DNA from: Desulfobulbus oligotrophicus
Lineage (GTDB): Bacteria; Desulfobacterota; Desulfobulbia; Desulfobulbales; Desulfobulbaceae
Reading direction: 5' to 3'
Length of the DNA stretch: 64,000 nucleotides
NCBI RefSeq assembly: GCF_016446285.1
Contig: NZ_CP054140.1
Span: forward strand, 229,501 to 293,500
Below the pieces are notes generated by a model. The model did no database searches and was not told the DNA's origin. It saw only the letters and a list, made by a program, of their open reading frames with translations. Positions 11,006-28,230 of the stretch are shown piece after piece. Positions within the stretch are counted from its first letter, which is position 1. Each line of letters opens with the position of its first letter. A program made the translations under genes and the position numbers.

Positions 11006-11782
11006 TCAGGCCTCCTTCATGAAGCGTATATCCCAGGCTTCGGAGCGGTTGTTATTGGCCGGATTTTCAACCACCCGGAATTCAAAAATCCGGTACGGCT
11101 CCTGAAAGTAGTGATCCGAGGTTAAGGTTGACTTGGACAGATGAAAAAACACGGTCTCAGACTGCAGTACATTGTTGTCCAGCCGATAGTAGCGAAAGAA
11201 ACCAAAACCGCGATCCTGGTTAAAGTTGATCACTGTACCCCGCTGCCACTGATCGGCCTGTTCGCCCTGGGCACCGGCAATGGGCAGCAGGCCCGGAATC
11301 AAAAACCCGGAGATGTAGGAGTCGGCCACCTCGCGCAGCTCCTTGTTCACGTTATGAAAGCCGATCACCTCCACCCGGCAGCCGGTATTCTGCAAGGCCA
11401 CGATCAACCGTAAAAAGTCACCGTCACCGGTGAGCAGAATGATCCGGTCAAGATTGCGCGCCTGGAGCAGCGCATCAATGGCCAGATCCATATCCGCATT
11501 GGCCTTGGTGGTTATGTTGCCGTCTTCGTCTTTAAAACGGCGAACATACTTCTTGATGATCTTGAAGCCGCAGTTGCGCAGGATGTTGTGGTAGGCATGC
11601 ACCTTCTGCCGGTACTCCGGATCAGCTTTAGTACGCTCCAGATCTTCAGCCAGGTAGCAGTTGGCCCGCACCATGACGGAGTGCATGCTGTTGGCTAAAT
11701 CAACGAGCACATCGTAGCGCATACCGTAGCCGCCACTCATCTTGATATTTTCCGCATCAACGTAGATAGCTGTTTTAAGCAT
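11006..11782 (-). CDS. NYN-domain (LabA/DUF88-like) protein with cold-shock-like C-terminus
   Basis: Putative RNase or RNA-binding protein. Residues 1-165 form a NYN (PIN-like) domain: AIYVDAENIK at the start, then NADMDLAIDALL and LLTGDGDFLRLI, giving the acidic residues expected of a metal-dependent nuclease. Residues 175-258 contain RGTVINFNQDRGFGFFRY and TVFFHLSKSTL, which resemble a cold-shock/S1-like OB fold (compare [15 protein letters not shown] in the cold-shock gene of this same window). The NYN-OB combination suggests an RNA target. First gene of an operon with glk. The function of this family is not established. Confidence 0.75.
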   Translation of the reverse strand: MLKTAIYVDAENIKMSGGYGMRYDVLVDLANSMHSVMVRANCYLAEDLERTKADPEYRQKVHAYHNILRNCGFKIIKKYVRRFKDEDGNITTKANADMDLAIDALLQARNLDRIILLTGDGDFLRLIVALQNTGCRVEVIGFHNVNKELREVADSYISGFLIPGLLPIAGAQGEQADQWQRGTVINFNQDRGFGFFRYYRLDNNVLQSETVFFHLSKSTLTSDHYFQEPYRIFEFRVVENPANNNRSEAWDIRFMKEA

Positions 11783-11936: not shown

Positions 11937-13979
11937 TCAGCGATCGGTTGCCTCACCACGCACCACATCAGCCAGACCGATCAGGTTGTCTTTAAAAAAT
12001 TGGGCGACCAGGTAGGTTGATCCCTCAGGGGTTAAATGGCCGTAGTCAAAGGCCAGGGGAACAATGGCGTCATTGGCAAGCGAAAGCATACACCCCTGAC
12101 TGTTGCATAAAAAATCCAGCGGATTGATGAACTGCACCCCTTCCTGTCGGGCAATCCGGGCAATATCCGCATTGACGTCAATGGCTGTCTTTTTGAAATG
12201 CCTGTAGGTGCGGGTATTCACCGTGTCGCCCTGAAACCGTTTTCTCAGCATATCGGTCTGATTCACAGTGTAGGTGGGCAGATGACCCACAACGATGATT
12301 TTTTCGATACCGATCTCTTTGACAACAGCAAGGGTCTGCGCCAGCATACCCATATCCAACTGATCCCACTTGTCGGTACCGTCGTACAGGGACCAGTACC
12401 CGGCCATGATGAGGATATCGGGCCGCACCTCCTGTATCTTTTGCCGGGCATAGGCGTTCAACTCCGTACAGTGTTGGCTGTTCGTCACTGTGCAGTCAAA
12501 AATAGGTGGGCAGCCGCTGGCTGTCAACTGAGACAGGTTAAAAGCCAGCCGCTCGGCCTGCACGGCAAGCCCTTTGTATAAAGCGGCGGCATGTGAGTCC
12601 CCCCACAGCATGACCACCGGCCGCCCCGGTGTTGAGACCGAGGTACAGACGTCGGCATAGGCATCGCTTGTCTCAAGGGTTGCATCAAGAAAACAGGTGC
12701 CCCGACGGTAATCTTTGTTCCAGTTGTACTGCTGCACCTGACCGATTTCCTTGTTCAGGATATTGATCGAACGAAACGGCCAGCCGCTGTTTTGGGCGGT
12801 ACTGATACCGATACAGCCAAAGAGCACCATCAGCACGACCAGAGCCGGCGTCTTTCCAGCAGCAGGTCGACCAAAGCGCACTCTCTGTTCAACAAACCGG
12901 TAGGTCAGCCAGCTCAGCACAACAGCAAGAACAACCATTGTCAGCCGCGTGCTCAGCCTGGGGATTTCGCCCTCAATAACCCTGGCAAAGGAAAGCAACG
13001 GCCAGTGCCACAGATACAGAGGAAAACTGATCAACCCCACCCAAACCGCAAGCGGATTGGCCAGGATGGTGCGGTTGACCCATGCCCCGGGCCCGGCTGC
13101 AATCAGCAACACCGCACCGGCCACCGGGATAACAGCCAACAGGCCGGGAAAGTTGTCGTCTTTATGTATACTTGTAAATCCATAGACCAGCAGCGCAAAA
13201 CCAAGCAGCGAGAGCCAGTGGGCAACAACCCGGGAATCAGGCCGCATGGAAACAGCAGCCGAACCGGACACCTCCGTCGGGTACAGCGCTGTCTGCCCAC
13301 CAGCAGGTGACTGTTTCACAAAAAGGGTGTACCAGGCGAGTACACCACCGGCCAGCAGCTCCCAGAAACGGGTGATCGGCGAGAAGAAGGCAAAGGACAT
13401 GTCCCGATAAATCCCCAGCATGTTGGCTGTAAACGAGACAGCCACAACAACAGCTGTCAGAGCGACAACACTTTTTTTTCGTTTCCAGAACAACCGGAGC
13501 AACAGCGGCCAGATGATGTAAAACTGCTCCTCAATGGCCAGACTCCACAGATGGAGAAGCGGCTTGGTTTCTGCCGAGGTATCAAAGTAACCGGCCTCTT
13601 TCCACAGAACAAAGTTGGAAACAAACCCCGCACCGGCAGCCACATGTCTGCCCAACCGTTTGTACTCGTCGGCAAGCAGTACAAACCAGCCGATCAGGCA
13701 GCAAAACAGCAGGACAAGCAGCAGTGCTGGAAATATGCGCTTGATACGACGGGCATAAAATTCAGTAAAGCTGAAGGTACCCCTGGTCAAGTTTTCGAAC
13801 AGGATGGTTGAGATAAGAAAACCGGAGATGACAAAAAATATATCAACGCCGATGAAGCCGCCTCTGAGGCAATCCGGAAAGGCATGAAAGAGAACCACCG
13901 GTATCACGGCAACCGCGCGCAACCCGTCGATGTCGGGGCGATATGTCGGGGATGACAGACGAACGGGCGAAGAGGACAT
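11937..13979 (-). CDS. OafA/YrhL-type acyltransferase with SGNH domain
   Basis: Membrane O-acyltransferase that modifies surface polysaccharide or peptidoglycan. The 680-residue protein has an N-terminal acyltransferase-3 domain with about ten membrane segments (YRPDIDGLRAVAVIPVVLFHAF, with the family's Arg and His, and FFVISGFLIS). A C-terminal SGNH-like domain follows (MLWGDSHAAALYKGL for the Ser block, and YGHLTPEGSTYL carrying the Asp/His-type end). Start: the ATG at 13979 is preferred over a TTG at 13988; neither has a clear ribosome site. It is the last core gene before the cassette island, read away from it. The acyl acceptor is unknown. Confidence 0.85.
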   Translation of the reverse strand: MSSSPVRLSSPTYRPDIDGLRAVAVIPVVLFHAFPDCLRGGFIGVDIFFVISGFLISTILFENLTRGTFSFTEFYARRIKRIFPALLLVLLFCCLIGWFVLLADEYKRLGRHVAAGAGFVSNFVLWKEAGYFDTSAETKPLLHLWSLAIEEQFYIIWPLLLRLFWKRKKSVVALTAVVVAVSFTANMLGIYRDMSFAFFSPITRFWELLAGGVLAWYTLFVKQSPAGGQTALYPTEVSGSAAVSMRPDSRVVAHWLSLLGFALLVYGFTSIHKDDNFPGLLAVIPVAGAVLLIAAGPGAWVNRTILANPLAVWVGLISFPLYLWHWPLLSFARVIEGEIPRLSTRLTMVVLAVVLSWLTYRFVEQRVRFGRPAAGKTPALVVLMVLFGCIGISTAQNSGWPFRSINILNKEIGQVQQYNWNKDYRRGTCFLDATLETSDAYADVCTSVSTPGRPVVMLWGDSHAAALYKGLAVQAERLAFNLSQLTASGCPPIFDCTVTNSQHCTELNAYARQKIQEVRPDILIMAGYWSLYDGTDKWDQLDMGMLAQTLAVVKEIGIEKIIVVGHLPTYTVNQTDMLRKRFQGDTVNTRTYRHFKKTAIDVNADIARIARQEGVQFINPLDFLCNSQGCMLSLANDAIVPLAFDYGHLTPEGSTYLVAQFFKDNLIGLADVVRGEATDR

Positions 13980-14901: not shown

Positions 14902-14966
14902 AATCTTTCCTATCAGTTTGGCCTTGTCATCTATGACACCATCATCTTCATTTACATAACGATTTA

Positions 14967-15010
14967 GCTCAACGGGCGGCGAAGCCGTCCGCTGGAGCGA
15001 CCTGTTAAGC
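14967..15010 (-). other. Short attC recombination site
   Basis: Read on the minus strand the site begins GCTTAAC (R'') and ends GTTGAGC (R', which fits GTTRRRY). In between lies a GGACGGCTTCGCCGCC hairpin typical of attC sites. At 44 bases it is shorter than usual, and appears to have lost part of one arm, so it may be poorly active. Confidence 0.65.
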
Positions 15011-15825: not shown

Positions 15826-15903
15826 ACCTAACGCCCCAGCTCACCGGCTGGCAGTATGCGGCGAATCCGCAGGATGGCGGTCAGGTGCAGCGCCTTGTTA
15901 GCC
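15826..15903 (-). other. attC recombination site (78 bp)
   Basis: On the minus strand the site runs from GGCTAAC to GTTAGGT (perfect GTTRRRY). Its arms AACAAGGCGCTGCACCTGACC and the central CTGCGGATTCGCCGCA give the imperfect palindrome characteristic of long attC sites in environmental integrons. It separates the zinc-ribbon cassette from the HNH-like cassette. Confidence 0.85.
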
Positions 15904-16626: not shown

Positions 16627-16684
16627 GGCTAACGTTTGAGCTCAGGCGCCGCCGAAGGCGGTCGCTTGCAGCGAAGGGTTAGGT
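16627..16684 (-). other. attC recombination site (58 bp)
   Basis: Minus strand: ACCTAAC (R'') ... CGACCGCCTTCGGCGGCGCC ... TGAGCTCAAACGTTAGCC (R'). Length, loop and arms are those of a classical short attC. The TAA stop codon of the upstream cassette gene lies inside R'', an arrangement often seen in cassettes. Confidence 0.88.
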
Positions 16685-17347
16685 TTCATCGCTCTTCTCG
16701 GCAGTGACCTTGAGCTTGCCATTTGCTTGCTGTTTGGCTAGCGGCTCAACACGACGATAAACAGACAACAAAATCTTGAGCTTCATCGCTGGGTTACTCT
16801 GGGTCTTGAGATCAAGGGCAGCAATTTGCTCGGCGGACAGCTTGAAGATGTTCTGGAGCTTCTCGGACTGAGTCTCGCAAAACGCGAGTTGACACTGCGT
16901 CAGTTCCAACTCCTTGTTGGATATGTCGATCTTGGTCAACTTCCTTTCGGCGCAGCCCTTCTGTATGTTTCGATAGGTTTCGTGCGCCATGTTGATTGAC
17001 GAGCAAACTGCTTTGACGATGGCCGCAATTCCAACTGCGACGACCAGTAGCTCCTGGAGTTCTATGAAACCAGGCGATGCATAGCGAATGCGTTGAATCT
17101 CCGGCCGCAGCTTCGTCGGAATCTTGTGGAAGAGTTGATTGAAAAAATTGACCGTGCTATAGCCGCCGCGCCAAGGGAACTTGCCATAGATGTAGTCGAC
17201 CTCTTCTCGCCGTGCTGCAGGCAGATTCGGAAGCAGCGAATAAATGAAGCCGTACATCTGGATGTAGTCCTTTGTGACATCTGATAGCTCCTCGAGGTGC
17301 CAGCGGCCATCAAGGCGAAGCTTGGTTTTTTCTGGTTCAAATGTCAT
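16679..17347 (-). CDS. Hypothetical cassette protein (222 aa)
   Basis: 222 residues, not recognised. One hydrophobic stretch in the middle (ELLVVAVGIAAIVKAVCSSI) could be a single membrane segment. The C-terminal half is rich in Lys, Glu and Gln and may be coiled (KLTKIDISNKELELTQCQ). Starts at ATG 17347, 17 bases after the GTTAGGC crossover box of the upstream palindromic site. It is therefore the first cassette after integrase module A. The stop is inside the next attC. Confidence 0.6.
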   Translation of the reverse strand: MTFEPEKTKLRLDGRWHLEELSDVTKDYIQMYGFIYSLLPNLPAARREEVDYIYGKFPWRGGYSTVNFFNQLFHKIPTKLRPEIQRIRYASPGFIELQELLVVAVGIAAIVKAVCSSINMAHETYRNIQKGCAERKLTKIDISNKELELTQCQLAFCETQSEKLQNIFKLSAEQIAALDLKTQSNPAMKLKILLSVYRRVEPLAKQQANGKLKVTAEKSDET

Positions 17348-17363
17348 GACGATCCCGAATTAA

Positions 17364-17401
17364 GCCTAACAAGGTATTAGCTGGGCGGAATCGTCCAGCT
17401 A
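17364..17401 (-). repeat. Palindromic attI/attC-like site A, left part (split by IS)
   Basis: Cassette-proximal part of repeat A: the GTTAGGC box (17370-17364) and the TATTAGCTGG...CCAGCTA palindrome. The sequence is interrupted at 17401 by an IS5-family element and continues at 18894. Homologous to the intact sites at 23763-23824 and 26275-26336. Confidence 0.8.
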
Positions 17402-18893
17402 GTCGGCCATGAAAAACTCTCAACGAGTTGGAATATATGGATAAAAATTGAAAAATATAGCACTGTAAATTGCAGGATATTGCACTTTTCCCCTTCAATT
17501 TCTGGTGATTTTCGATGCAGCCGAAGAAGCAGATTTCCAGCCCCCAGTTGGACATGTTCCGCAACCGTTTGGAGAGCATTCTCAATCATCGTCATGAGTT
17601 GTACCGGCTGAGTGGGCTGATCGACTGGGGAGTGTTTGAAAGCGAGTTTGGCAAGCTGTACTCTGAGGAAGGCCGGCCGGGGCTCCCGATTCGTTTGCTC
17701 GTAGGCCTGACCTATCTGAGCCATGCGTTCAACACGTCAGACGAAGAGACGGTACGGCGGTGGGTGGAGAACCCGTACCATCAATATTTCTGCGGGGAAG
17801 AGTACTTTTGTCATGAACTGCCGATCGATCCGTCTTCGTTGAGTCGCTGGCGAAAGAGGATAGGTGAGCAGGGATCGGAATTGATCCTGCAGCTCACGAT
17901 AAAGGCGGGGTTGACAAGCGGAGCGGTTGCGCCGACCAGTTTGGAGCGAGTGATTGTTGATACGACTGTTCAGGAAAAGGCGGTGGCGTTTCCGACCGAT
18001 TCACGATTGTACAACCGCAGTCGGGAACGACTGGTCAAGTTGGCTGCGGTTTGGGGCATTCGTCTTCGGCAGAGTTACTCCCGTCTTGGACGTCAGGCCT
18101 TGTTAAAGGCCGGCCGGTATTTTCACGCCCGCCAAACCCGAAGAGCCCGTCGGGAGGTAAAACGGCTGAAGACCTATCTGGGCAGGGTGTATCGGGACAT
18201 TGTGCGCAAGATCGAAGGGCAGCAGGCGCTTGGCCCAGTGCTTCTTCCCGAGCTTGCCCTGGCTGAGCGGTTGTTGACGCAGCAGAAACAGGACAAGAAC
18301 AAGCTCTACAGCCTGCATGCACCGGAAGTCGAATGCATTGCCAAGGGCAAGGCACACAAGAAGTACGAGTTCGGGGTCAAGGTGAGCGTGGCCACCACCA
18401 ATCGAGACAACTTCGTGGTGGGCATGTTGGCTGAACCTGGCAATCCCTATGATGGCCACACCCTGGGCAGGGCCATTGAGCAGGTGCAGCGGATCACCGG
18501 CTGCACCGTTCAACGCAGTTTTGTCGACCGGGGCTACCGTGGTCACAAGATCAAAGAACCCCAGGTGTTGATCTCCGGTCGCAGGCGGGGAATGACACCG
18601 CAGATGAAGAAGGAACTCAAGAGACGCAGCGCCGTTGAGCCGGTGATCGGCCATATGAAGGCGGATGGCAAGCTTGGACGCAATTACCTGCTGGGTGAGT
18701 TGGGCGATAAAATCAATGCCCTGCTCTGTGGAGCAGGGCACAATATCCGTCTTATCCTCAAGAAGTTGAGGGAAAGGTTGTTTCTTCTTTTTACCGGATT
18801 GCTTTTGGTCCTCTGGTGCCGCTTCGATGGGCAAAAAAAGGGTGCCGGAGCGATCGCCCCGGCAATATGAAAAAAGGCTTTTTCAAGGACGAC
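17402..18893 (+). mobile_element. IS5-family insertion sequence (about 1.49 kb)
   Basis: Ends are imperfect inverted repeats: GTCGGCCATGAAAAACTCT at the left against GTCGTCCTTGAAAAAGCCT read inward from the right, 14-15 of 19 matching. The flanking 6 bases CAGCTA occur on both sides (17396-17401 and 18894-18899), consistent with a target duplication, although 6 bp is unusual for IS5 (commonly 3-4 bp). Contains one transposase gene. It interrupts the palindrome of site A. Confidence 0.8.
17515..18870 (+). CDS. IS5-family transposase
   Basis: 451-residue DDE transposase. The N-terminal DUF772-type domain shows LSGLIDWGVFESEFG and GLPIRLLVGLTYLSHAFNTSDEETVRRWVENPYHQYF. Catalytic candidates are Asp in VIVDTTVQEKA, Asp in FVDRGYRGH and Glu in RSAVEPVIGHMKADGKLGRN. 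It fills most of the IS and appears intact, so the element may still be mobile. The ATG at 17515 follows an AT-rich leader; no better start is seen. Confidence 0.88.
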   Translation: MQPKKQISSPQLDMFRNRLESILNHRHELYRLSGLIDWGVFESEFGKLYSEEGRPGLPIRLLVGLTYLSHAFNTSDEETVRRWVENPYHQYFCGEEYFCHELPIDPSSLSRWRKRIGEQGSELILQLTIKAGLTSGAVAPTSLERVIVDTTVQEKAVAFPTDSRLYNRSRERLVKLAAVWGIRLRQSYSRLGRQALLKAGRYFHARQTRRARREVKRLKTYLGRVYRDIVRKIEGQQALGPVLLPELALAERLLTQQKQDKNKLYSLHAPEVECIAKGKAHKKYEFGVKVSVATTNRDNFVVGMLAEPGNPYDGHTLGRAIEQVQRITGCTVQRSFVDRGYRGHKIKEPQVLISGRRRGMTPQMKKELKRRSAVEPVIGHMKADGKLGRNYLLGELGDKINALLCGAGHNIRLILKKLRERLFLLFTGLLLVLWCRFDGQKKGAGAIAPAI

Positions 18894-18923
18894 CAGCTAA
18901 TACACTCAATGGTCTTGTTAACG
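18894..18923 (-). repeat. Palindromic attI/attC-like site A, right part
   Basis: Integrase-proximal remainder of site A after the IS insertion: CAGCTAATACACTCAATGG then GTTAACG. Joined to 17364-17401 it restores a site nearly identical to copies B and C. Confidence 0.75.
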
Positions 18924-18975
18924 ATAATAGCACAAAAACATGTCAAATTTATTATATTTCAGAATGAAATGATGC

Positions 18976-19407
18976 TTAAAAATCCAATGGGCTTTTTGCC
19001 TCTTTTGCCGTCTTGCCTGGTATGCAGTGGGTATACATCATCGTTGTTCTCACATCGGTGTGTCCCAGCATCGTTTGGATTGTCCGTATATCGTAGTCAG
19101 CTTGTAAAAGATGGGTCGCGAAACTGTGGCGAAAAGTGTGCGATTTGACCCGCTTAGTAAGTTTTGCCATCCGGGCGGCTCTTTTCAACGCGCCCTGAAC
19201 GTGCGATTCATGCAGGTGATATCGTCTCCATTCTTTTGTTCCTGGAATCGGGGTCAGTTCCTTTTTGTGGCAGCAACCATTGCGGATGAAATCTTTTACA
19301 ACAAACGGATACTTCTTTTCGAATGAACCGACAAGAATTACTCCGGCATAGCCTGTTGCCACATCTTGTTCATGGAGTTCGCTCACCACCGCCAATTGGT
19401 TTTTCAA
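18976..19407 (-). pseudogene. intI: Integron integrase 3' fragment, copy A
   Basis: About 143 codons matching the C-terminal part of integron integrases: LHEQDVATGYAGV, EKKYPFVVKDF, WRRYHLHESHVQGALKRAAR, the catalytic block [31 protein letters not shown] and the Tyr segment MMYTH. The N-terminal half with the first catalytic Arg is missing, so it should be inactive as an integrase. The 5' break is at about 19405. The stop codon is about 50 bases before the palindromic site, and the fragment points the same way as the cassettes. Longest of three copies. Confidence 0.88.
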
Positions 19408-19523
19408 CTATCTCCACCCATGTCATCAAAGAGATGCGCAGTTCGGTGGCGAGTCCGCTCGATGTGCCGGGCTGGCAGCGGGTGTTTGGGCGATTCCTGA
19501 AGGATGCAGAGATGTGCGGATGA
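19405..19523 (+). pseudogene. Possible second recombinase 3' tail, opposite strand
   Basis: A short plus-strand frame reads TISTHVIKEMRSSVASPLD, which resembles the very end of another tyrosine recombinase of the integron type (pattern T.IYTHV.....SPLD), with the catalytic Tyr replaced by Ser (TCC, one base from TAC). It starts within a few bases of the 5' break of integrase fragment A, so two truncated recombinase ends seem to meet head to head. The match is short and uncertain. Confidence 0.3.
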
Positions 19524-19750
19524 GAGATGAGTGGCGCTCTGCGCGAGCGGGCTTGCGTCATCAGGGAATTATAGGTATGCTCGCACTTTTTTCCTTTCGT
19601 TTATTCGGGTGCCCCTCATGCATCTCCCTGCTAAAGATACATGCGGAGGAAATATGGCAGTTCTCTGCAGCACAACGACCGAAATTTTTCAAACACACCA
19701 GCCGTCCGCACTCCACAGCGTTGGCCGGCGTACATAGTGACAAGATCAAC

Positions 19751-21568
19751 ATGAATACCGAAATGCTCTGGGTCCTCGGCTTGCTGGCCGCCTGCGTCGT
19801 CGCCTTCATCGCCAATCGCCCGCGCATGGACGCGGTCGCCCTTCTTGCCCTGCTCGCCCTCGTGTTGAGCGGCACGCTTGATGTCAGTGAAGCGCTGGCC
19901 GGTTTCAGCGAGCCGAGCGTGATCCTGATCGCCTCCTTCTTTGTCATTGGCGAAAGCCTGGTGCGCACCGGTATCGCCTTTCGTGTGGGCGATTGGCTGG
20001 TCACAAAAGCCGGCAACAGCGAGACGCGGCTGCTGGTGCTGTTGATGCTGGCGGTCGCCGGCCTCGGTTCGGTGATGAGTTCCACCGGCGTGGTGGCCAT
20101 TTTCATCCCGGTCACTTTGAGTGTCGCGACACGTATCGGAGTCTCCCCCAGCCGACTGATGATGCCGCTTTGCTTTGCCGGTCTGATGAGCGGCATGCTG
20201 ACCCTGGTCGGGACGCCGCCCAACCTGGTGGTCAATGGCGAGCTCGCCCGTGCCGGATACCCGGGGTTCGCCTTCTTCGACTTCACTCCAACAGGCGTTG
20301 TCGTGCTCATGGCCAGCATCGGCTACATGCTACTGACGCGGCGCTGGCTGGCGAACAAACCGGAAAAGAGCGCGCCGTCGGGCAAGCGTCGTCGGCTACG
20401 TGATCTGGCGCAGGACTACCAGCTTCTCGGACGCTCCCGCCGCCTGCTGATTTCTCACGATTCGCCGATGGTCGGCCACACCCTGGGCGAGCTGGAACTG
20501 CGCACGCGTTACGGCGCGAACATCGTCTCCATTGAACGCCAGCGCCAGTTTCGCCGTGTCATGCTGACGCCTGCGGTCAACCGCGAAATACTCGCCGGCG
20601 ATATCATCCTCGCCGATTTCGCCGACGGCGAGCCTGACATCGAGCGCTTCGTCGCCGACATGCAGTTGCAGGATTGCGGACTCAGAAACGATCTGTCGCA
20701 CGAACTCGGTCTTGCCGAACTCCTCGTCCCCCCCGACTCCATCCTGATCGGCAAGTCGATCCTCGAGTCGCGCATACGCTCGCAGCACGGTCTTAACGTC
20801 ATGGGCCTGCGCCGCAGCGGCCAGCCGCTGAGCGACAACCTGCTGCAAGAAAAATTGAAACCGGGTGATACGCTGCTGGTCGCCGGCACCTGGAAGGCGA
20901 TCCGCCTGTTGCACACCCAGTCGCACGACTTTCTCGTGCTCAATCTGCCGGCAGAGATCGACGAAGCCGCTCCTGCCGCACAGCAGGCTCCATTCGCCCT
21001 GCTCAGTCTGGCGATAACCGTCGGGCTGATGATCAGCGGCATAGTGCCCAACGTCATCGCTGCGCTGGTCGGCTGCATGCTGATGGGTGCCTTCCGCTGC
21101 ATCGACATGGAGAGCGCCTACCGCTCGATTCACTGGCAGAGCCTGATCCTGATCATCGGCATGCTCCCCTTTGCCCTGGCACTGCAAAAAACCGGCGGCA
21201 TCGACTTTTTCGTGTCCGCCCTGCTCGGCTTCACCGGCGAGGCTTCGCCGCGAGTGGTGATGGCCTCCCTGTTCGTGCTCACCGCAGTGGTCGGACTTTT
21301 TGTCTCCAACACCGCCACCGCGGTGCTGATGGCGCCGATCGGCATCGGTGTGGCGCAGCAGCTTGGTGTATCCCCTTATCCGTTCGCAATGACGATCGCG
21401 CTCGCCGCCTCCGCCGCTTTCATGACGCCGATATCGTCACCAGTGAACACCCTGGTACTCGGTCCCGGCAACTACCGCTTCATTGATTTCATCCGCATCG
21501 GTGTGCCTTTCACCGTGATTGTACTGCTGATCTGCGTCAGTGTGCTGCCGTTACTGTTCCCGCTGTAA
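19751..21568 (+). CDS. SLC13-family permease with TrkA-C (RCK_C) domains
   Basis: 605-residue membrane transporter of the divalent anion:Na+ symporter/CitT group. About five N-terminal segments include GSVMSSTGVVAIFIPV and TLVGTPPNLVVNGELARAG, the latter a helical-hairpin signature. Two cytoplasmic RCK_C domains (about residues 215-390, with SPMVGHTLGELELR and DSILIGKSILESRI) interrupt the transmembrane parts, and the second hairpin region is FVSNTATAVLMAPIGIGVA and TPISSPVNTLVLGPG. Substrate unknown (sulfate or a dicarboxylate are typical). Start: the ATG at 19751 fits the first membrane helix. It is opposite to the cassettes and visibly GC-rich in third positions, suggesting separate acquisition. 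Confidence 0.85.
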   Translation: MNTEMLWVLGLLAACVVAFIANRPRMDAVALLALLALVLSGTLDVSEALAGFSEPSVILIASFFVIGESLVRTGIAFRVGDWLVTKAGNSETRLLVLLMLAVAGLGSVMSSTGVVAIFIPVTLSVATRIGVSPSRLMMPLCFAGLMSGMLTLVGTPPNLVVNGELARAGYPGFAFFDFTPTGVVVLMASIGYMLLTRRWLANKPEKSAPSGKRRRLRDLAQDYQLLGRSRRLLISHDSPMVGHTLGELELRTRYGANIVSIERQRQFRRVMLTPAVNREILAGDIILADFADGEPDIERFVADMQLQDCGLRNDLSHELGLAELLVPPDSILIGKSILESRIRSQHGLNVMGLRRSGQPLSDNLLQEKLKPGDTLLVAGTWKAIRLLHTQSHDFLVLNLPAEIDEAAPAAQQAPFALLSLAITVGLMISGIVPNVIAALVGCMLMGAFRCIDMESAYRSIHWQSLILIIGMLPFALALQKTGGIDFFVSALLGFTGEASPRVVMASLFVLTAVVGLFVSNTATAVLMAPIGIGVAQQLGVSPYPFAMTIALAASAAFMTPISSPVNTLVLGPGNYRFIDFIRIGVPFTVIVLLICVSVLPLLFPL

Positions 21569-21596
21569 GGCCTATGCATCAGCAGCAACATTTTTT

Positions 21597-21683
21597 GCTG
21601 CCAGGCATTGTTGGATGATGCTACCCGCAAAGCACAAAAAAGCCCATGTACACATGGGCTTTTATACTCCTTGGACTGATGAG
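21597..21683 (-). repeat. Second copy of the guaA 3' terminator region
   Basis: About 87 bases (GCTGCCAGGCATTG...GATGAG) nearly identical to 26560-26655 next to guaA, minus a short internal GATGTTGGAT duplication. Contains the same AAGCCCATGT...ACATGGGCTT hairpin. Here it lies between the SLC13 gene and the transposase remnant, about 5 kb from guaA. Confidence 0.8.
21636..21663. terminator. Terminator hairpin (copy of guaA terminator)
   Basis: The stem AAGCCCATGT/ACATGGGCTT has an A-rich left side and T-rich right side in either direction. It would stop transcription from the SLC13 gene and anything coming from the right. Confidence 0.75.
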
Positions 21684-21689
21684 AAAAAC

Positions 21690-22067
21690 TAGGGACACTT
21701 CCCTGTTTTTGTGCGTGGCCTCCCCGGTTCGGGTAGCCAAGCGGATGGCATTATCAGTTTCTTCATCTTCTTCTCTGACAAAAGCTGCATACGCGCTCCG
21801 CTGCTGAGGAGAGAACCACGGCGTTGCATCCGGCAGGGGCTCGTTTATTCCGATAATGTGGGCTTTGGCGCTGGACCAGCAATATGTCTCCGCACTCACC
21901 GCCAAACCGGCCTTCAATGGATTACGCTCGATGAGCGAGCCACTGCTAATACCTTCAAATACGTCTGTCGGTCCTCGTCATCGAAAAAGACGGTGACGCG
22001 ATTATTACCGCGCTGTGTGATATGGATGCGGATAGCCAACCACTATAATGCGTGCAATTCCTGGCAT
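21690..22067 (-). pseudogene. REP-associated tyrosine transposase (RAYT) remnant
   Basis: The minus strand starts MPGIARIIVVGYPH, then shifts frame into HITQRGNNRVTVFFDDEDRQTY. After an internal deletion it resumes as IERNPLKAGLAVSAETY CWSSAKAHI with an ATRTG ending. These are the N- and C-terminal signatures of Y1/TnpA_REP transposases. The central part, with the His-hydrophobic-His pair and catalytic Tyr, is lost, so it is dead. It is bounded by a perfect 13-bp inverted repeat, AGGGACACTTCCC at the left and its complement at about 22113-22125. Confidence 0.8.
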
Positions 22068-22125
22068 GGTGCGGATAATGCTACAAAGCTGATAGCTCGC
22101 TATAGATAATATGGGAAGTGTCCCT
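21690..22125. mobile_element. Decayed RAYT element with terminal inverted repeats
   Basis: The unit is delimited by AGGGACACTTCCC near 21691-21703 and GGGAAGTGTCCCT near 22113-22125. It contains the broken transposase described separately. Its right edge abuts an attC half-site (22141-22165), so its arrival, or a later deletion, removed the rest of that attC. Confidence 0.6.
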
Positions 22126-22140
22126 GGTTTTCCTGGTTTT

Positions 22141-22165
22141 CTCCGTGTGGACTGCCGGGTTGGGC
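22141..22165 (-). other. attC half-site truncated by the RAYT element
   Basis: The minus strand reads GCCCAACCCGGCAGTCCAC just after the stop codon of the ATPase cassette gene: a good R'' box and first arm of an attC. The matching second arm and GTTRRRY box are absent. Sequence typical of the RAYT end follows instead. Confidence 0.6.
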
Positions 22166-22174
22166 CTCACGTGC

Positions 22175-23716
22175 TTATCGCCTCTTGCGTATCTTGGGTG
22201 GTAGTCCAGTGCGAGCAGCATGTTCCTGTTGGAGACTGATTAAAAAGTCCCTGTAAGACGGCCCAATTTCCCATGCCGTAGCCTGCATATCATTCCATCG
22301 GGACTTTGAAACGTAGTTTGGGTCCTCCCGAGGATATACATGTCGGTAGCCGTCCCTCTCCCTAGTGTCAGCCACGCGCGCATTCAGGAAGCCAACGTCA
22401 AATAGGTACTTCCATAACTGAAAGGCGTCGTCCTCATCTCCTGGTTTTAGCGACCGACCGAACAGTTGAAGACCAAAGTTCGCGCCGTTGCGGAGCAAGT
22501 GATCCTTAATAGTCTCTGACTTGGCCTTGAACGAGCCGTGATCGTATTCAAGATCAGAGAAGGTTCGAATGACTTGTTCAATCTGAGGGCAATCAAACTC
22601 TGATTCTTGGGCAAGGAGCGATACTCGTTGCTTAGAGAACTCGATCATTTCTTTTGCAAAGAGATCATCAGGAATCTTCCCAAACCCGGCAGTATTCGCA
22701 ACTTGAGCCAATGCATTCACAAGTTGGACTGCATCGCGTGGACGCTCTCTTGACCGAACTACTATGAGATCTGGCCAACTACTTCGCTGGTCTGTGGTCG
22801 GTATTAGAGGATTCTCAGGCTCGAAAAATAGTTTCCACGTCTCTGATGAATTAGGTGCAAGCTCACGAGCTGCCAACTCAATACGCCTTTCAATAATTTT
22901 GTGAATGTGGGTGCGTGTGGGACTAAGGAACCTGACGAGCCCGGCAAAGTGGTCTGTTTGATCTCTCTGGCCAGCGCGATCACTCGTAATGCGACGCCAA
23001 ACCTCTTCGCGAAGCGAAATCACGCAACGAAGCTGCTCGATCTTCTGTGCAAGCTCTCTGGCGGCTAACAAGAATCCCCAAATTCGATTCAAGTGTCCCG
23101 GCCTATCGGGTGCGGCAACTTGGTCTGTGTCATCAATGAATAGATAGAAGCCAGATTGTGATTCTTCTAAGTTGCTCTTGATGGCCTTCAATAGCTGATT
23201 GCGGTTAGCAACAGATGTGGTCGGTAGGAGCGATGAAATATCGACCTCAGTCAATGGCTTTGCGAGCTTTGGCAGCAAATGGGCGAGCTTGTCCACTGTG
23301 TTGCGGTCACGAAGACCAGCAGTAACAGCTTCTTCATAGAGAACCTTATCTTGTTCCGACACTAGACCGGAAACCGACGAGCCGAGGGTTCTGGCAATTG
23401 TCCGAGACAACTCCTGGAATGCTATGCGGGTCACCTCACCAACGGAGGCCGTCTCAGGAATAGCGCCGAGTTCAAGATCGAGCGGTTTTAGTTGAACAGC
23501 AGGCACACTTGTTAACTTAAAGACCGCCATTGAGAAGTCGATGATTGCGCTCTTTCCACTACCCTTCTTGCCGATCAATACGCGCGGACTGAATGGCGGA
23601 GGTGAAATAATGTCAGCGTACTCATCAAGTTGAACGAAGGCTTTTCGCAGAATGTGCCGCTCTCCTTCTGTTGTTCCCGTTGGAAAGTACTTAAGCAACG
23701 TCTCTAGTGACTTCAT
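22175..23716 (-). CDS. P-loop ATPase (Sll1717-like), cassette-borne
   Basis: 513 residues. Walker A is VLIGKKGSGKSAIIDF near residue 50 and Walker B is GFYLFIDDTDQVAAPD near residue 190. A later RSRERPRDAVQLVNALAQ segment resembles the Arg-containing C-terminal part of STAND-like or KAP-type ATPases. No obvious effector domain, membrane segment or nuclease motif is fused. I recall similar stand-alone proteins grouped as Sll1717-family ATPases; their role is not settled and they are often found in variable regions. Starts at ATG 23716, 47 bases from the GTTGGGC crossover box, so it is a large single-gene cassette directly after integrase module B. Confidence 0.7.
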   Translation of the reverse strand: MKSLETLLKYFPTGTTEGERHILRKAFVQLDEYADIISPPPFSPRVLIGKKGSGKSAIIDFSMAVFKLTSVPAVQLKPLDLELGAIPETASVGEVTRIAFQELSRTIARTLGSSVSGLVSEQDKVLYEEAVTAGLRDRNTVDKLAHLLPKLAKPLTEVDISSLLPTTSVANRNQLLKAIKSNLEESQSGFYLFIDDTDQVAAPDRPGHLNRIWGFLLAARELAQKIEQLRCVISLREEVWRRITSDRAGQRDQTDHFAGLVRFLSPTRTHIHKIIERRIELAARELAPNSSETWKLFFEPENPLIPTTDQRSSWPDLIVVRSRERPRDAVQLVNALAQVANTAGFGKIPDDLFAKEMIEFSKQRVSLLAQESEFDCPQIEQVIRTFSDLEYDHGSFKAKSETIKDHLLRNGANFGLQLFGRSLKPGDEDDAFQLWKYLFDVGFLNARVADTRERDGYRHVYPREDPNYVSKSRWNDMQATAWEIGPSYRDFLISLQQEHAARTGLPPKIRKRR

Positions 23717-23762
23717 CAGTGACTCCAGAACGGAAGGGGATTTCGATGCAAGGATTATTGAG

Positions 23763-23824
23763 GCCCAACAAGGTATTAGCTGGACGGGATCGTCCAGCTA
23801 ATACACTCAATAGTGTTGTTAACG
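23763..23824 (-). repeat. Palindromic attI/attC-like site, copy B (intact)
   Basis: Minus strand: CGTTAAC, then AACACTATTGAG, then a near-perfect palindrome GTATTAGCTGGACG/CGTCCAGCTAATAC, then CTTGTTGGGC. The outer TAACAA and TTGTT boxes are complementary, like R''/R', and the end fits GTTRRRY. It lies about 53 bases after the stop codon of integrase fragment B and 46 bases before the ATPase cassette gene. Could be attI of a reversed integron or the attC of a cassette carrying the integrase end. Confidence 0.8.
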
Positions 23825-23876
23825 ATAATAGCACAAAAACATGCTAAATCTATTATATTTCACGGTGAAATAATGC

Positions 23877-24169
23877 TTAAAAATCCAATGGGTTTTTTGC
23901 CTCTTTTGCCGTCCTGTCCGGTATGCAGTGGGTATACATCATCGTTGTTCTCATATCGGTGTGCCCCAGCATCGTTTGGATTGTCCGTATGTCGCAGTCA
24001 GCTTGTAAAAGATGGGTCGCGAAACTGTGGCGAAAAGTGTGCGATTTAACGCGCTTAGTGAGTTTTGCCATCCGTGCGGCTCTTTTCAACGCGCTCTGAA
24101 CTTGCGATTCATGCAGGTGATATCGTCTACATTCTTTTGTTCCTGGAATTGCCGGTATGTCTTGTAATA
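23877..24169 (-). pseudogene. intI: Integron integrase 3' fragment, copy B
   Basis: Nearly the same as fragment A from RRYHLHESQVQSALKRAAR through HTFRHSFATHLLQADCDIR and TTMMYTHCIP to the stop. The similarity to copy A fades upstream of PGTKE (about 24150). The frame is cut by an IS630-family element whose left end is near 24170. The N-terminal catalytic half is missing. Confidence 0.85.
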
Positions 24170-25262
24170 TTAACAAGTTCATAAATTAGCGGACACATGG
24201 TATATTCTGCTCACGAACGAATTCGATGGACGTAAAATAAATCGCAAGGCCCTTGAAGAGATCCGCATACGTGCTGTGAAGCGTGTTGAAGCGGGCGAGA
24301 GCCCCGAAGTTGTCATCAAGGCGTTGGGTCTTACTCGACCTCGCATCTACGAATGGATTGCCAAGTATCGAGAAGGAGGAATCGAGGCACTGAGGAGCAG
24401 CAAGGCGAGTGGCCGCCCTTCGAAGCTGGCCGGCAAGGATTTGCAGAAAATCTATCGCTTGGTTGTCGGCAAGGATCCTCGACAAGTGAAATTTCCCTTT
24501 GCGCTTTGGACAAGGAGTATGGTGCGAGAACTGATCAGCCGGGAGTTCAGTGTTCGATTGAGCGATGTCTCTGTTGGCCGATTGCTGCACAAACTGGGCC
24601 TGAGCCCGCAACGTCCGATCCATCGCGCCTATCAACAGGACCAGACGCTTGTCGTCGACTGGATGGCCAAGGATTTTCCTGCGATCAAAAAACTGGCCAA
24701 GCAGGAAGGTGCTGCTATCTATTTTGGAGACGAGGCCTCTGTTCGATCTGACTATCATTCCGGAACCACCTGGGCTCCTAAGGGGAAGACACCGGTGGTT
24801 GCAACGACCGGTGCCCGTTTCAAGGTGAATGTGCTCTCCGCGATCAGCCCCAAAGGGGAGCTGCGGTTTATGGCTACGGAGAAAACAGTGAACTCCGAAG
24901 TGTTTTGTGAATTCCTCGACCGATTGATTGCCAATGCCACGGCACCTGTCTTTTTGATTGTCGACAATCATTCCGTTCATCGCTCGGAGAAAGTTCGAGA
25001 GTTTGTCCGAAATACAAAAGGTAAATTGAGACTCTTCCACTTGCCGCCCTATTCCCCCGAGCTGAACCCCGATGAACTTGTATGGAACTATTTGAAAAAC
25101 CATAACATAGGGCGCATGTCGCATGGCGGCAAAAAAGAATTCCAAGAACGAGTTGCCACCATCATGCAATCGCTTTAAAAGCTCACGGATAAGGTGAAGG
25201 GATTCTTTCGCCATCCTATCATCAAATACACCGAAATGTTCGGTGATTTATGTACTGATTAA
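24170..25262 (+). mobile_element. IS630-family insertion sequence (about 1.09 kb)
   Basis: Ends show imperfect inverted repeats (TTAACAAGTTCATAAAT at the left against TTAATCAGTACATAAAT read inward from the right). TA lies on both outer sides (24168-24169 and 25263-25264), as expected from IS630/Tc1-type TA target duplication. Contains one transposase gene. Boundaries are my alignment by eye. Confidence 0.65.
24276..25178 (+). CDS. IS630-family transposase
   Basis: About 300 residues: an N-terminal helix-turn-helix (VIKALGLTRPRIYEWIAKYREGG), a winged-helix part, then a DDE_3 catalytic domain with Asp in IYFGDEASVRSD, Asp in LIVDNHSVH and the final acidic residue in LPPYSPELNPDELVW. Homologous coding continues upstream of the GTG at 24276 (TNEFDGRKINRKALEEIRIR, from about 24213) without an ATG, so the true start is probably a rare codon near 24204-24207. 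Appears otherwise intact. Confidence 0.88.
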   Translation: MKRVEAGESPEVVIKALGLTRPRIYEWIAKYREGGIEALRSSKASGRPSKLAGKDLQKIYRLVVGKDPRQVKFPFALWTRSMVRELISREFSVRLSDVSVGRLLHKLGLSPQRPIHRAYQQDQTLVVDWMAKDFPAIKKLAKQEGAAIYFGDEASVRSDYHSGTTWAPKGKTPVVATTGARFKVNVLSAISPKGELRFMATEKTVNSEVFCEFLDRLIANATAPVFLIVDNHSVHRSEKVREFVRNTKGKLRLFHLPPYSPELNPDELVWNYLKNHNIGRMSHGGKKEFQERVATIMQSL

Positions 25263-25318
25263 TACCAAAATACTTGATGCGTGACGGAGAGTACCCCAAT
25301 CCCCGTATCTCTTTTTTT

Positions 25319-25340
25319 CCGGTGAAATGACTGGTTATGT
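25319..25340 (-). other. attC half-site next to the IS630 region
   Basis: The minus strand reads ACATAACCAGTCATTTCACC immediately at the stop codon of the following cassette gene. This is a plausible R'' box and first arm. No complementary second arm follows before the IS630 element, only about 55 bases of unrelated sequence, so the site is truncated. Confidence 0.5.
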
Positions 25341-25844
25341 TCTTTTAAGGTCTCGCTTTGCAACTTCAACAAGTTCTTTTAATGCTTTATCGTGTTCTTG
25401 ATATTCTTGCTCATAGAATTCAAATCTGGGTTCATTAAAGTAATCAAACTGTTCCCTTCTTCTTAATTCTTGTAGAATATCAATAGCTTCTTGTGATATA
25501 TAGAAAGCACCTATGTCAGTAGCTTTATTTAATGAAGATGAAGCTCTTATATATTTTTGAAGTAATTCCCGTTCTCGTTCATCAGATAATCCAGTACCTT
25601 GCCCATAGTCTTCTTTATGTATTCGGAAGTATTTAATCATGTCATATAGAGCTACAATAATCTCTTCATATGCTTTTTCACGTCTTGTGATTTGAGATTT
25701 GAAGCTCTCAAGTTTTATGTCATATTCATGCTTAACAGAAGCTTTTAGCCTTTCTAACAACCAATTACGGCCTAAATACATTATTAAAGCAGCCAAGCTA
25801 ACACTACTGATCGAACTGAGTAGTGCTAATATGATATTTTCCAT
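25335..25844 (-). CDS. Hypothetical membrane-anchored coiled protein, cassette-borne (169 aa)
   Basis: Not recognised by name. One N-terminal membrane segment (IILALLSSISSVSLAALIMYLG) is followed by a long charged helical region (KHEYDIKLESFKSQITRREKAYEEI...), a type seen repeatedly in integron cassettes and phage-like islands. Possible ATG starts at 25859, 25853 and 25844; the last is chosen because the first lies inside the attC crossover box. AT-rich coding. It is bounded upstream by an attC and downstream by an attC half-site. Confidence 0.6.
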   Translation of the reverse strand: MENIILALLSSISSVSLAALIMYLGRNWLLERLKASVKHEYDIKLESFKSQITRREKAYEEIIVALYDMIKYFRIHKEDYGQGTGLSDERERELLQKYIRASSSLNKATDIGAFYISQEAIDILQELRRREQFDYFNEPRFEFYEQEYQEHDKALKELVEVAKRDLKRT

Positions 25845-25855
25845 ATATCTCATGA

Positions 25856-25928
25856 ACATAACGACTTGAGTGAATTTCCGAATCTGGAGCTTGCAGATTC
25901 TAACTCTGCCCCATTCTCAAAGTTAGCT
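25856..25928 (-). other. attC recombination site (73 bp)
   Basis: The minus strand runs from AGCTAAC (R'') through AGAATCTG/CAGATTC, a central stem with a CAAGCTC loop, to CTCAAGTCGTTATGT (R'). The TTTGAG and CTCAAG arms pair. Separates the two AT-rich membrane-protein cassettes. Confidence 0.78.
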
Positions 25929-26004
25929 CTACCTGCTGATTATGCATAAATCCTTTTTGCTATTATGGACTGCTTTGTATGAAAATAAATTTCAGGATAA
26001 AAGC

Positions 26005-26232
26005 TCATTTCCATTTATTTCTTACAAAATCTTCCGCCTCTGATAGTCTCCTCCATCTTTCTTTGACTTCTCCTTTCCACATCGCTATACCAATCATAGC
26101 AAGTACAATGGCTATTAAAGGACGTTGTTTATTTAGGGCTACTATAGCCGAAATAATCCAAAACAAACTTGATGAGAGCCAAGTGAGTTTTTCAATTTTT
26201 AGTTTTAGCAATTTTACTGTTTTTTCTTTCAT
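26005..26232 (-). CDS. Small membrane protein, cassette-borne (75 aa)
   Basis: 75 residues with two hydrophobic segments (LSSSLFWIISAIVAL and LIAIVLAMIGIAMW) and a basic C-terminus. Starts with ATG at 26232, 43 bases from the crossover box of site C, which makes it the first cassette after integrase module C. Product unknown. Confidence 0.5.
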   Translation of the reverse strand: MKEKTVKLLKLKIEKLTWLSSSLFWIISAIVALNKQRPLIAIVLAMIGIAMWKGEVKERWRRLSEAEDFVRNKWK

Positions 26233-26274
26233 CTTGTTCTTTAAGTACCATTATTAATGCCCATTCTTTTTTTG

Positions 26275-26336
26275 GCATAACAAGGTATTAGCTGGACGGA
26301 ATCGTCCAGCTAATACACTCAATAGTGTTGTTAACG
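26275..26336 (-). repeat. Palindromic attI/attC-like site, copy C (intact)
   Basis: Almost identical to copy B over the whole palindrome and the CACTCAATAGTGTTGTTAACG arm, but ending GTTATGC at the cassette side. Positioned about 50 bases after the stop of integrase fragment C. Confidence 0.8.
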
Positions 26337-26385
26337 ATAAAAGCAAAAAACATACCAAATTTATTATTTCACAGTGAAATGATGC

Positions 26386-26536
26386 TTAAAAATCCAATGG
26401 GTTTTTTGCCTCTTTTGCCGTCTTGCTCGGTATGCAGTAGGTATACATCATCGTTGTTCTCACATCGGTATGCCCCAGCATCGTTTGGATTGTCCGTATG
26501 TCGCAGTCAGCTCGTAAAAGATGGGTCGCGAAACCT
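26386..26536 (-). pseudogene. intI: Integron integrase 3' fragment, copy C
   Basis: The last 50 codons of the same integrase: [28 protein letters not shown] and the shared C-terminal PLDF. Homology to copies A and B ends abruptly at about 26536, followed by sequence leading into the guaA terminator. The residue after the catalytic-Tyr segment is changed (YTY for YTH). Confidence 0.8.
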
Positions 26537-26559
26537 GCCTCGGAAATCTCAAGTTCAAT

Positions 26560-26655
26560 GCTGCCAGGCATTGTTGGATGATGTTGGATGATGCTACCCA
26601 CAAAAACAAAAAAGCCCATGTCAACATGGGCTTTTCTACTCCTGGGGCTGATGAG
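26560..26655 (-). repeat. guaA downstream region, original copy of the duplicated segment
   Basis: Matches 21597-21683 with a 10-base internal tandem duplication (TTGGATGATG repeated). Includes the guaA terminator. This copy lies directly after the guaA stop, so it is probably the source. Confidence 0.75.
26611..26635 (-). terminator. Rho-independent terminator of guaBA
   Basis: Minus strand: AAAAGCCCATGT, a short loop, ACATGGGCTTTTTTG, then further Ts. Strong stem with a T tract about 45 bases after the guaA stop codon. Confidence 0.88.
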
Positions 26656-26679
26656 AGGTAATGAAGGCTTAGGGCGCAA

Positions 26680-28230
26680 TCACTCCCACTCGATGGTGGC
26701 CGGCGGTTTGGACGAGATATCGTACACCACCCGGTTGACGCCGCGTACCTCGTTGATGATGCGGTTTGAGATACGGCCGAGCAGCTCGTAGGGCAGCTGC
26801 GACCAGTCTGCGGTCATGGCATCGCGGCTGTCCACCGCCCGAAGCGCAATCACATGCTCGTAGGTCCGGCTGTCGCCCATGACTCCCACGGTCTGAATGG
26901 GCAAAAGCACGGCAAAGGACTGCCACACCTTGCGGTACCAGCCGCTGTCCTTCATCTCTTCCAGCACAATGGCATCGGCCCGGCGGAGGATGTCCAGCCG
27001 CTGGGCAGTGACCGGCCCCATGATGCGGATACCCAGGCCCGGTCCGGGGAAGGGCTGGCGGTAGATCGCCTCCTCGGGCAGCCCCAGTTCCAGCCCCAGC
27101 TCACGCACCTCGTCTTTGAAGAGTTCGCGCAGGGGCTCGATCAGATCAAGCTGCATCCGCTCGGGCAGGCCGCCGACGTTGTGGTGCGATTTGATGGGTG
27201 CCTTGCCCCGGAAGGACACCGACTCGATCACATCCGGATAGAGGGTTCCCTGGGCAAGATAGCGCACGTTTGCCAGTTTTCTGGCCTCAGCCTCGAAAAT
27301 TTCAATAAAGCCGTAGCCGATGCGTTTCCGCTTCTCCTCCGGATCGGCAATACCCTCCAGAGAGGAGAGGAAAAACTCGGTGCCGTTGACATCAATGACC
27401 TGCAGGCTCGTTTTTTCCCGGAAGAAGCGAAGCACACTTGCCGATTCGCCGGTGCGCATCAGCCCGGTATCAACATAAATACAGGTAAGCTGATCACCAA
27501 TGGCACGATGCACCAGGGCCGCCACCACCGAAGAGTCCACACCGCCGGACAGGGCGCAGATCACCTGATCATCACCCACCCGGGCACGAATTTCCGCCAC
27601 TGTGTCCTCGATAAAGGACTGCATGGTCCACTCCGGCCGACATCCGCAGAGACCGAAGATAAAGTTGCGCAGTACATCAGTGCCGATCAGGGTATGGACA
27701 ACCTCAGGATGAAACTGGATGGCAACAAAGGGCTTTTCCAGATGCCGCAGGGCGGCACAGGGTGAGTCCGGGCTGGTGGCGGTGACGGCAAAACCCGGGG
27801 CAGGTTCCTTAATCCGGTCGCTGTGGCTCATCCATACCTGAAAACGGGCCGGGGCAATCTCCAGGCCGGCAAACAACCCGCCGGTGTACTCCACTGTGAG
27901 CCTGGCCTTGCCGAACTCCTGTTTATCAGCACGTTCCACCTGCCCGCCCAGTTGCACGGTCATCAGCTGGGCACCGTAGCAGATGCCGAGAACAGGCACC
28001 CCGAGCTCGTAGATACCCGCATCACTGAACGGCGCATCCTCGTCATGCACACTGGCCGGACTGCCGGAGAGGATGATACCGGTGGGCTGCATGGCCCTAA
28101 GCTCAGCAAGCGGCAGGGTATAGGGGTGAATTTCACTGTACACCTTCTGTTCGCGGATACGGCGGGCGATCAGCTGCGTGGTCTGCGAACCGAAATCAAG
28201 GATAATTATTTTCTGGGCATGAGTGGACAT
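26680..28230 (-). CDS. guaA: GMP synthase (glutamine-hydrolysing)
   Basis: Converts XMP to GMP with ATP and glutamine. The 516-residue protein has an N-terminal class-I amidotransferase ([19 protein letters not shown], catalytic Cys in [10 protein letters not shown], His/Glu in [11 protein letters not shown]), an ATP pyrophosphatase domain with the P-loop [16 protein letters not shown], and a C-terminal dimerisation domain ending [10 protein letters not shown]. Sits 31 bases after guaB in an operon. Confidence 0.97.

Follow-up and report, generated by a model that had tools for sequence, protein, structure and literature searches.

A 64,000-nucleotide stretch of the Desulfobulbus oligotrophicus chromosome (the window, whose positions are used for numbering) carries three integron-like modules on its minus strand. 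Each consists of a C-terminal remnant of an integron integrase (IntI), some 50 bp of further DNA, a palindromic site, and then minus-strand genes that differ from module to module. We refer to the three copies as 18.9k, 23.8k and 26.3k. Their blocks are 91-93% identical in pairwise comparison, and the palindrome, GTATTAGCTGGACG-4nt-CGTCCAGCTAATAC, lies at 23773-23804 and 26285-26316 in the latter two. Chance is excluded as the source of these palindromes, because one half-pattern occurs three times in the window where 0.09 occurrences are expected, and the other three times where 0.00 are expected. An earlier reading of the letters alone (the original prediction) had described an IntI C-terminus repeated about 50 bp before a near-identical palindromic site at three places, with different genes after each. 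This description is confirmed, with one copy split by an insertion sequence, and the module alignment proposed at the time gives the identities just quoted.

The three copies, all read on the minus strand, have decayed to different degrees. Copy 26.3k retains about 49 amino acids of IntI (26386-26535; 81.6% identical to an intact IntI by tblastn), followed by a sigma-54-type promoter-like motif, TGGTATG-N4-TTGCT (GG-N10-GC; 26342-26357), which scores 11/12 against a relaxed consensus at offset -20. The candidate attI site at 26275-26337, found by pattern match and by covariance model R1 (93.2 bits), begins 48 bp after the stop codon, and contains the hairpin at 26285-26316 and the cassette junction G^TTATGC at 26275-26281. 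In copy 23.8k, the remnant extends by tblastn homology over 23877-24149 (its open reading frame reaches 24182), and 51 bp separate its stop codon from the 63-bp site at 23763-23825 (hairpin 23773-23804; junction GTTGGGC; R1 88.5 bits); the motif between them is degenerate as read from the sequence, AG-N11-GC at 23830-23846. Copy 18.9k has a 143-residue remnant (18976-19407), 81% identical to the IntI of Desulfoprunum benzoelyticum; the remnant matches profile positions 173-313 of TIGR02249 at 138.9 bits, below the cut-off of 265, being a fragment. Its motif likewise reads as degenerate (GA-N11-GC, 18929-18945), and its palindrome, with one stem mismatch, is split into a 5' part (18893-18927, including one copy of the duplication CCAGCTA) and a 3' part (17364-17401, junction GTTAGGC), both located by pattern match. 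Between them sits a plus-strand insertion sequence (17402-18892, ends read by eye; transposase frame 17515-18870), flanked on both sides by CCAGCTA, a likely target duplication of about 7 bp. The original prediction had placed the three integrase ends at 18976-19407, 23877-24169 and 26386-26536, close to the limits given here. The 18.9k module has to be redrawn, spanning 17364 to 19407 across the insertion sequence.

The site is neither confined to the window nor to this species. The D. oligotrophicus genome (3.10 Mb, one contig) carries six modules, at approximately 116.7k, 212k, 248k, 253k, 256k and 1,557k: the palindrome is intact at five places, each beside an IntI remnant, and the split copy makes the sixth. 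An intact integrase of this type was not found anywhere in the 3.10 Mb, and the window carries remnants only. In D. benzoelyticum (locus L064) and in genomes G070, G037 and G003, an intact IntI is present, and the palindrome follows its stop codon. Four intact IntI of relatives score 360-381 bits against TIGR02249 (cut-off 265), and that of D. benzoelyticum aligns over residues 191-493 to IntI4 (2a3v), its best solved match. A covariance model of the site, run over 257 genomes of the order, returned 46 matches, or 43 after three opposite-strand echoes were dropped, distributed across 17 genomes, 13 genera and 5 families. For 27 of the 43, IntI is matched no more than 300 bp 5' of the site; the other 16 have no such match, and some of these (e.g. 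G070b and G151b) keep the last IntI codons, as judged by eye.

A search independent of the site leads to the same association. When the D. benzoelyticum IntI was compared with the same 257 genomes (E of 1e-90 or less, 43 matches listed), the nine near-full-length IntI with at least 71% identity, counting the query itself, all had the palindrome 3' of the gene. Seven of these are uninterrupted (G132, G037, G212, G003, G070, G230, G160) and two have a disturbed C-terminus (G140, G240). Three IntI fragments, two pieces in G179 and one in G151, also have the site, and the other 31 listed matches, at 47-63% identity, showed no site match at those places. The site-bearing IntI, which are long (about 480 amino acids), form one group on the tree (support 100/99; 8 of 30 rows), nested within long IntI of which most are without the hairpin site. 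In a sample of the whole phylum, the site was matched in 7 of 395 genomes: that of the window, two others from the same order, and four that belong to two further families. Three of the four outside the order have an IntI tail of 21-28 residues before the site, and the fourth site lies at a contig end. Twenty-five IntI loci from a family search (L039-L063) gave no site match better than E 0.8.

Gene order runs from intI through the site to the cassettes in one direction, both in the window and in L064, which bears out the original suggestion of a reversed integron with remnant and cassettes pointing the same way. To locate the cassettes we used a home-made attC finder, with no published attC model behind its calls. 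Across 6.5-7.0 kb on the 5' side of four intact intI genes, it found no attC-like sites; on their 3' side, it found attC in two of the four (L064 and L075) by a strict scan and in three, with L076, by a looser scan judged by eye. The classical orientation, with attI 5' of intI, is rejected in view of these attC-blank 5' flanks together with the palindrome 3' of all nine close IntI. The strict scan also returned nothing for eight long IntI without the hairpin, but for seven of them the sequence extended no further than 37-441 nt on the 5' side and about 1.5 kb on the 3' side. The original prediction had offered, as the test that could overturn it, a search of sister genomes for an intact intI and for the palindrome on its 3' side, and across the 257 genomes it was not refuted.

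The site itself records cassette insertion. When the six genome copies are aligned (the split copy by its 5' part only, its 3' part being read separately), homology stops at CTTGTT, and the DNA thereafter is unlike. In an integrated cassette, the bases after GTT derive from the cassette's own attC and complement its R'' box. We compared the four bases after each GTT with the R'' of the first attC-like call downstream, without curation and against 10,000 shuffles. Attempts at this were possible for the 27 of 43 pads (as we call the individual attI copies) that are followed by attC-like sites, some of these calls being false; the remaining 16 had no attC call or no intact GTT. Thirteen of the 27 sites show a perfect four-base complement (shuffles: mean 1.0, maximum 6), and 73 of 108 positions match (mean 40.0, maximum 59), even with false calls kept in the test: one inside an insertion sequence, one that is a neighbouring attI, and one attC shared by G225a and G225c. 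Among the perfect junctions are those of G037b and G003c, where IntI is not matched within 300 bp, and that of G070b, where an IntI tail is all that remains. This match between junction and R'' is the strongest evidence that pads both with and without IntI have served as insertion sites. Because the palindrome lies 3' of nine out of nine close IntI, homology ends at CTTGTT, and the junctions match the attC, we infer that the palindrome is the attI, the cassette-insertion site of a reversed integron, as had originally been proposed.

The same observations bear on whether the hairpin is simply an RNA element, either a terminator of intI or a 5' untranslated stabiliser of the downstream transcript, to which the position of the junction would be secondary. 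A strong stem soon after the intI stop codon would suit the former, and a promoter-like motif that would place the hairpin at the very 5' end of the mRNA would suit the latter. Against this, inspection of 12 sites by eye found no T-run directly after the stem on the integrase strand, conserved sequence runs on to CTTGTT and stops at the recombination point, and the junction/attC match demands a recombination site at the hairpin. We therefore regard a purely RNA-level explanation as very improbable, while the hairpin may have a dual role as RNA element and recombination site.

The hairpin is conserved as a structure. Among 11 distinct sites, four stem pairs show two-sided changes (a count of four being reached by 6 of 500 shuffles), and the covariation score was reached by none of 500. 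Across 40 sites, 86.8% of cells are paired, and two-sided changes occur in seven pairs (reached by 6 of 500 shuffles) and 22 cells (0 of 500), compared with 11 cells at most when the stem was slid as a control. From this count over the named structure, and not from RNAalifold, which on the 40 sites placed a short helix within the promoter motif, we conclude that two-sided base changes maintain the stem of the attI.

A maintained, attC-like stem also invites the reading that the hairpin is an ordinary attC, with intI itself residing in a cassette whose attC would be the apparent attI. Cassettes do have this layout, in which a gene precedes a stem site that ends in GTTRRRY, and pads occur in several places per genome. 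As for the boxes of an attC, the site conserves a GTT box on its 3' side and a TAAC resembling R'', with about 14 nt between TAAC and the stem, and symmetric L boxes are not evident. An integrase cassette would be expected to start behind GTT and the complement of its own R''; an exact 7-mer of this kind is present within 600 nt on the 5' side of one of the nine near-complete intI (G037a), where shuffling leads one to expect about 0.3 over the nine. Such a 7-mer was not found 5' of the other eight, however, and the 6.5-7.0 kb upstream of the four intact genes held no attC-like site. Conservation moreover extends 5' of the stem into the promoter-like motif, also at pads without an IntI match, and this would be needless for an attC. 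An integrase cassette thus seems an improbable source of the site, and we retain its identification as attI.

This 5' conservation takes the form of a GG-N10-GC block directly upstream of the site, at pads with and without an IntI match alike. Of the 42 non-redundant sites, 28 have its strict form at position -18 or -19. The canonical sigma-54 consensus is TGGCACG-N4-TTGCW, and at least 10 of its 12 positions are matched in 27 of the 42 sites, where mononucleotide shuffles expect 0.06. No site reaches 9 of 12 on the reverse strand (0/42), and for 13 IntI genes that lack the hairpin, the best scores within 150 nt 3' of the gene are 6-9 of 12. With a relaxed consensus, chosen after seeing the data, 34 of 42 sites match against 1.31 in dinucleotide shuffles, and the best match falls at offset -19 or -20 in 36 of 42; since the sites are related, these matches are non-independent events. 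The genome of the window has an rpoN gene. The motif is probably a sigma-54 promoter of the cassettes, and promoter activity and its dependence on sigma-54 are predicted from these matches. An extra base in the spacer of four copies (w18.9, w23.8, g1557 and G024c) suggests that these may be inactive as promoters. The rival possibility, that the block is an accessory integrase-binding element of attI, is the less likely of the two and still deserves consideration: attI1 has extra IntI sites beside its core, and the block keeps the fixed distance from the site just described. Its fit to the sigma-54 consensus in 27 of 42 sites and its dissimilarity to the GTTRRRY core site speak for a promoter instead.

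Many genomes with the site have several pads. At least two are present in 12 of the 17, with the split copy counted. G160a and G160b, which lie on short contigs and agree at 99% over 1.2 kb, may represent a single place that was assembled two times. Five of the 12 have an uninterrupted IntI of the clade (G037, G003, G070, G160, G230), and G140 has a broken one. G037 consists of one contig, on which the intact intI lies at 435-436 kb and a second pad at 2.54 Mb. Three pads of G225 have about 200 bp of upstream sequence in common; the copy that was translated contains no long open frame, and IntI is not matched within 300 bp of these pads. When integrase-less pads were compared for mobile boundaries, no element that moves them was identified; their right ends fall at the junction in most comparisons, with blastn ends scattering by up to about a dozen bases. 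In G225 (L124, L128), the DNA preceding three cassette junctions forms a shared module of about 265 bp, 92-95% identical, ending in CTTGTT and with a fairly sharp left end.

Within the window, a common orientation, spacings of 2.5 and 4.9 kb and the high identity of the modules might suggest recent local tandem duplication. The window copies, however, resemble one another no more closely than they resemble the genome's other copies (89-94%). In a tree of weak resolution, the six copies mix with the three of G024, a genome of the same genus, and none of 200 bootstrap trees unites the six apart from those three. Recent duplication in place is accordingly a most unlikely history, and the original proposal of a locus repeatedly duplicated or merged from three integrons proves too narrow. 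A further trace of this history lies at 1.557 Mb, where a fragment of a gene that we take from its sequence to be guaA (L032 about 5368-5474; 93% over 107 bp to window guaA at 26870-26976) is joined to the IntI remnant via a shared GGCAACAG. Because of this fusion, and because copy 26.3k adjoins guaA, a guaA-linked integron is a plausible ancestor of the copies.

Taken together, we consider it likely, at a probability of roughly 0.8, that the window modules are degraded representatives of a reversed-integron clade of the Desulfobacterota, with a hairpin attI beside a sigma-54-type motif and with multiple pads. The ancestral unit would have run in one direction from intI, through 30-70 bp containing the -24/-12 motif, to attI and the attC-terminated cassettes. 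Its attI would comprise TAAC, then a hairpin whose stem reaches up to 14 bp and has GGACGnATTCCGTCC as its conserved core, and CTTG^TT. IntI would recombine the attC of a cassette circle at the G^TT of the hairpin, so that the bases after GTT would come from the first cassette and agree with its attC; the attI would be folded during this reaction. Transcription of the cassettes would probably start from the sigma-54-type promoter at the attI, near TAAC, making the hairpin the 5' end of the mRNA. The pads would have multiplied within genomes, and because the adjacent intI is decayed or absent at several of them, a single integrase could act in trans on several pads. In the genome of the window, lacking an intact integrase of this type, the arrays would probably be frozen and the window copies are probably fossils.

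Several observations weigh against this reading. The attC-like site after the first cassette of copy 26.3k (25856-25928, minus strand; R''/R' boxes and a partial stem) is weak, its R'' mismatches the junction, and a later attC scan did not call it. The scan found no convincing attC after copy 23.8k and was also blank after several relatives' sites. Among the 27 first-attC calls, 14 are imperfect junction matches; some of these calls are false, and loss of a cassette would break the match too. At L066, whose IntI is 66% identical over the C-terminus, neither site nor motif occurs in the 75 nt between the stop codon and an assembly gap. The stem is uneven: its number of pair types is unremarkable (reached by 77 of 500 shuffles), the outermost pair (54/86) is unpaired in 26 of 40 sites, and pairs 60/80 and 62/78 in 13 and 9. 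RNAalifold, unaided, retained 6 of 14 stem pairs on the 40 sites with a covariation term of -0.36. The window's near-perfect palindrome is best regarded as the extreme of a weaker conserved stem, not as typical, and related sequences inflate the conservation counts. In the window, GG-N10-GC is present only in copy 26.3k, the other two having N11 and no GG. Six of the 12 multi-pad genomes (G000, G024, G093, G150, G151, G225) yielded no intact IntI of the clade. Finally, IntI1 is described as giving no recombination with single-stranded attI1 (PMC2117344), so a folded attI would differ from the best-studied one.

The genes and attC sites behind the pads are all on the minus strand. After copy 26.3k come cassette frames of 75 amino acids (26005-26232) and 174 amino acids (25335-25859), both without a Pfam match, and after copy 23.8k one of 513 amino acids (22175-23716), AAA_16-like below the cut-off. 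The split attI of copy 18.9k is followed by a 222-residue frame (16679-17347) without a Pfam match and by three attC sites: ACCTAAC...GTTAGCC at 16627-16684, where 3 of 4 junction bases match, GGCTAAC...GTTAGGT at 15826-15903, and GCTTAAC...GTTATGT at 14954-15010.

Other elements accompany these integron remnants. A 93%-identical copy of the insertion sequence at 17402-18892 lies downstream of the 1.557-Mb site (L032 2811-4307), with a likely 7-bp target duplication, TAGGATA. On the 5' side of the 23.8k remnant is a plus-strand transposase frame (24276-25178; Pfam DDE_3), presumably IS630-like. A second, oppositely facing integrase tail (THVIKEMRSSVASPLD; 19409-19520, plus strand) lies directly against the truncated IntI of copy 18.9k; the 116-kb copy has such an arrangement beside it as well (L030 about 4174-4242, minus strand), and L080 contains a similar tail at 11579-11680. 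Shared transposase pieces, whose translation we take to resemble a REP-associated (Y1) transposase, are found near integron remnants at window 21723-22133, L031 5293-5773 and L030 5991-6489. A hairpin with a T-run near the 3' end of guaA is repeated 5 kb away after a citrate-transporter-like gene (window 21596-21684 and 26559-26656; 82% identical). In D. benzoelyticum, the cassette array is followed by a reverse transcriptase (L064 about 12000-13900) that by eye we presume to be group II intron-like; group IIC-attC introns likewise sit after attC cassettes. An inverted repeat resembling TTGAC-N9-GTCAA, possibly a repressor operator, was seen by eye in the intI promoter region at five of nine loci (L111, L077, L075, L116, L112), imperfect in two.

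With class 1 and Vibrio integrons, the clade shares the IntI family TIGR02249, the G^TT insertion point and attC structure, while intI and the cassettes diverge in those integrons. Reverse integrons have been described in Treponema and, through citations, in Acinetobacter, Chlorobium and Blastopirellula (PMC3607928, PMC6557892). In the accounts given there, intI of Treponema denticola and relatives is, as here, transcribed toward attI and along the attC cassette arrays; judged by those descriptions, our clade is set apart by its hairpin attI, sigma-54-type motif, several pads, different taxa and long IntI. Archaeal integrons also have attI 'immediately downstream' of intI and a canonical insertion point, and their description in the portions consulted includes no hairpin attI, sigma-54 motif or integrase-less pads (PMC9668308). 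Cassette clusters without an integrase (CALIN), named in the same source, are likewise arrays lying away from an integrase gene, but some integrase-less arrays here are headed by attI and the promoter-like motif. The long IntI of 'clade 15', about 120 amino acids longer than usual, can be likened to ours by that description of length alone (PMC2426708), and other long IntI in this analysis are without the hairpin attI. Classical attI is described as non-palindromic (PMC3053210), attI in general as poorly conserved (PMC3053210, PMC3607928), and the cassette promoters described in PMC8876359 are sigma-70-like. The open-access literature searched yielded no attI in hairpin form, no sigma-54 promoter of cassettes and no genome with several attI pads. 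Reversed orientation is not in itself new. What goes beyond the reversed integrons described so far is the hairpin attI, together with the sigma-54-type motif and the multiplicity of pads.

The usual picture of an integron is a single attI beside a single intI. We speculate, tentatively, that this clade instead represents a 'distributed integron', in which one integrase would serve several chromosomal attI pads, each hairpin being recombined single-stranded in the manner of an attC, carrying its own sigma-54 cassette promoter and heading the mRNA. If so, cassette expression would be tied to an activator-controlled signal. A conserved hairpin makes attI searchable by covariance model, as was done here, and the clade provides natural examples in which folded attI and sigma-54 questions could be assayed. 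More broadly, these pads suggest that integrons can hold several expression platforms in one chromosome, and that loss of the integrase leaves those platforms behind as fossils.

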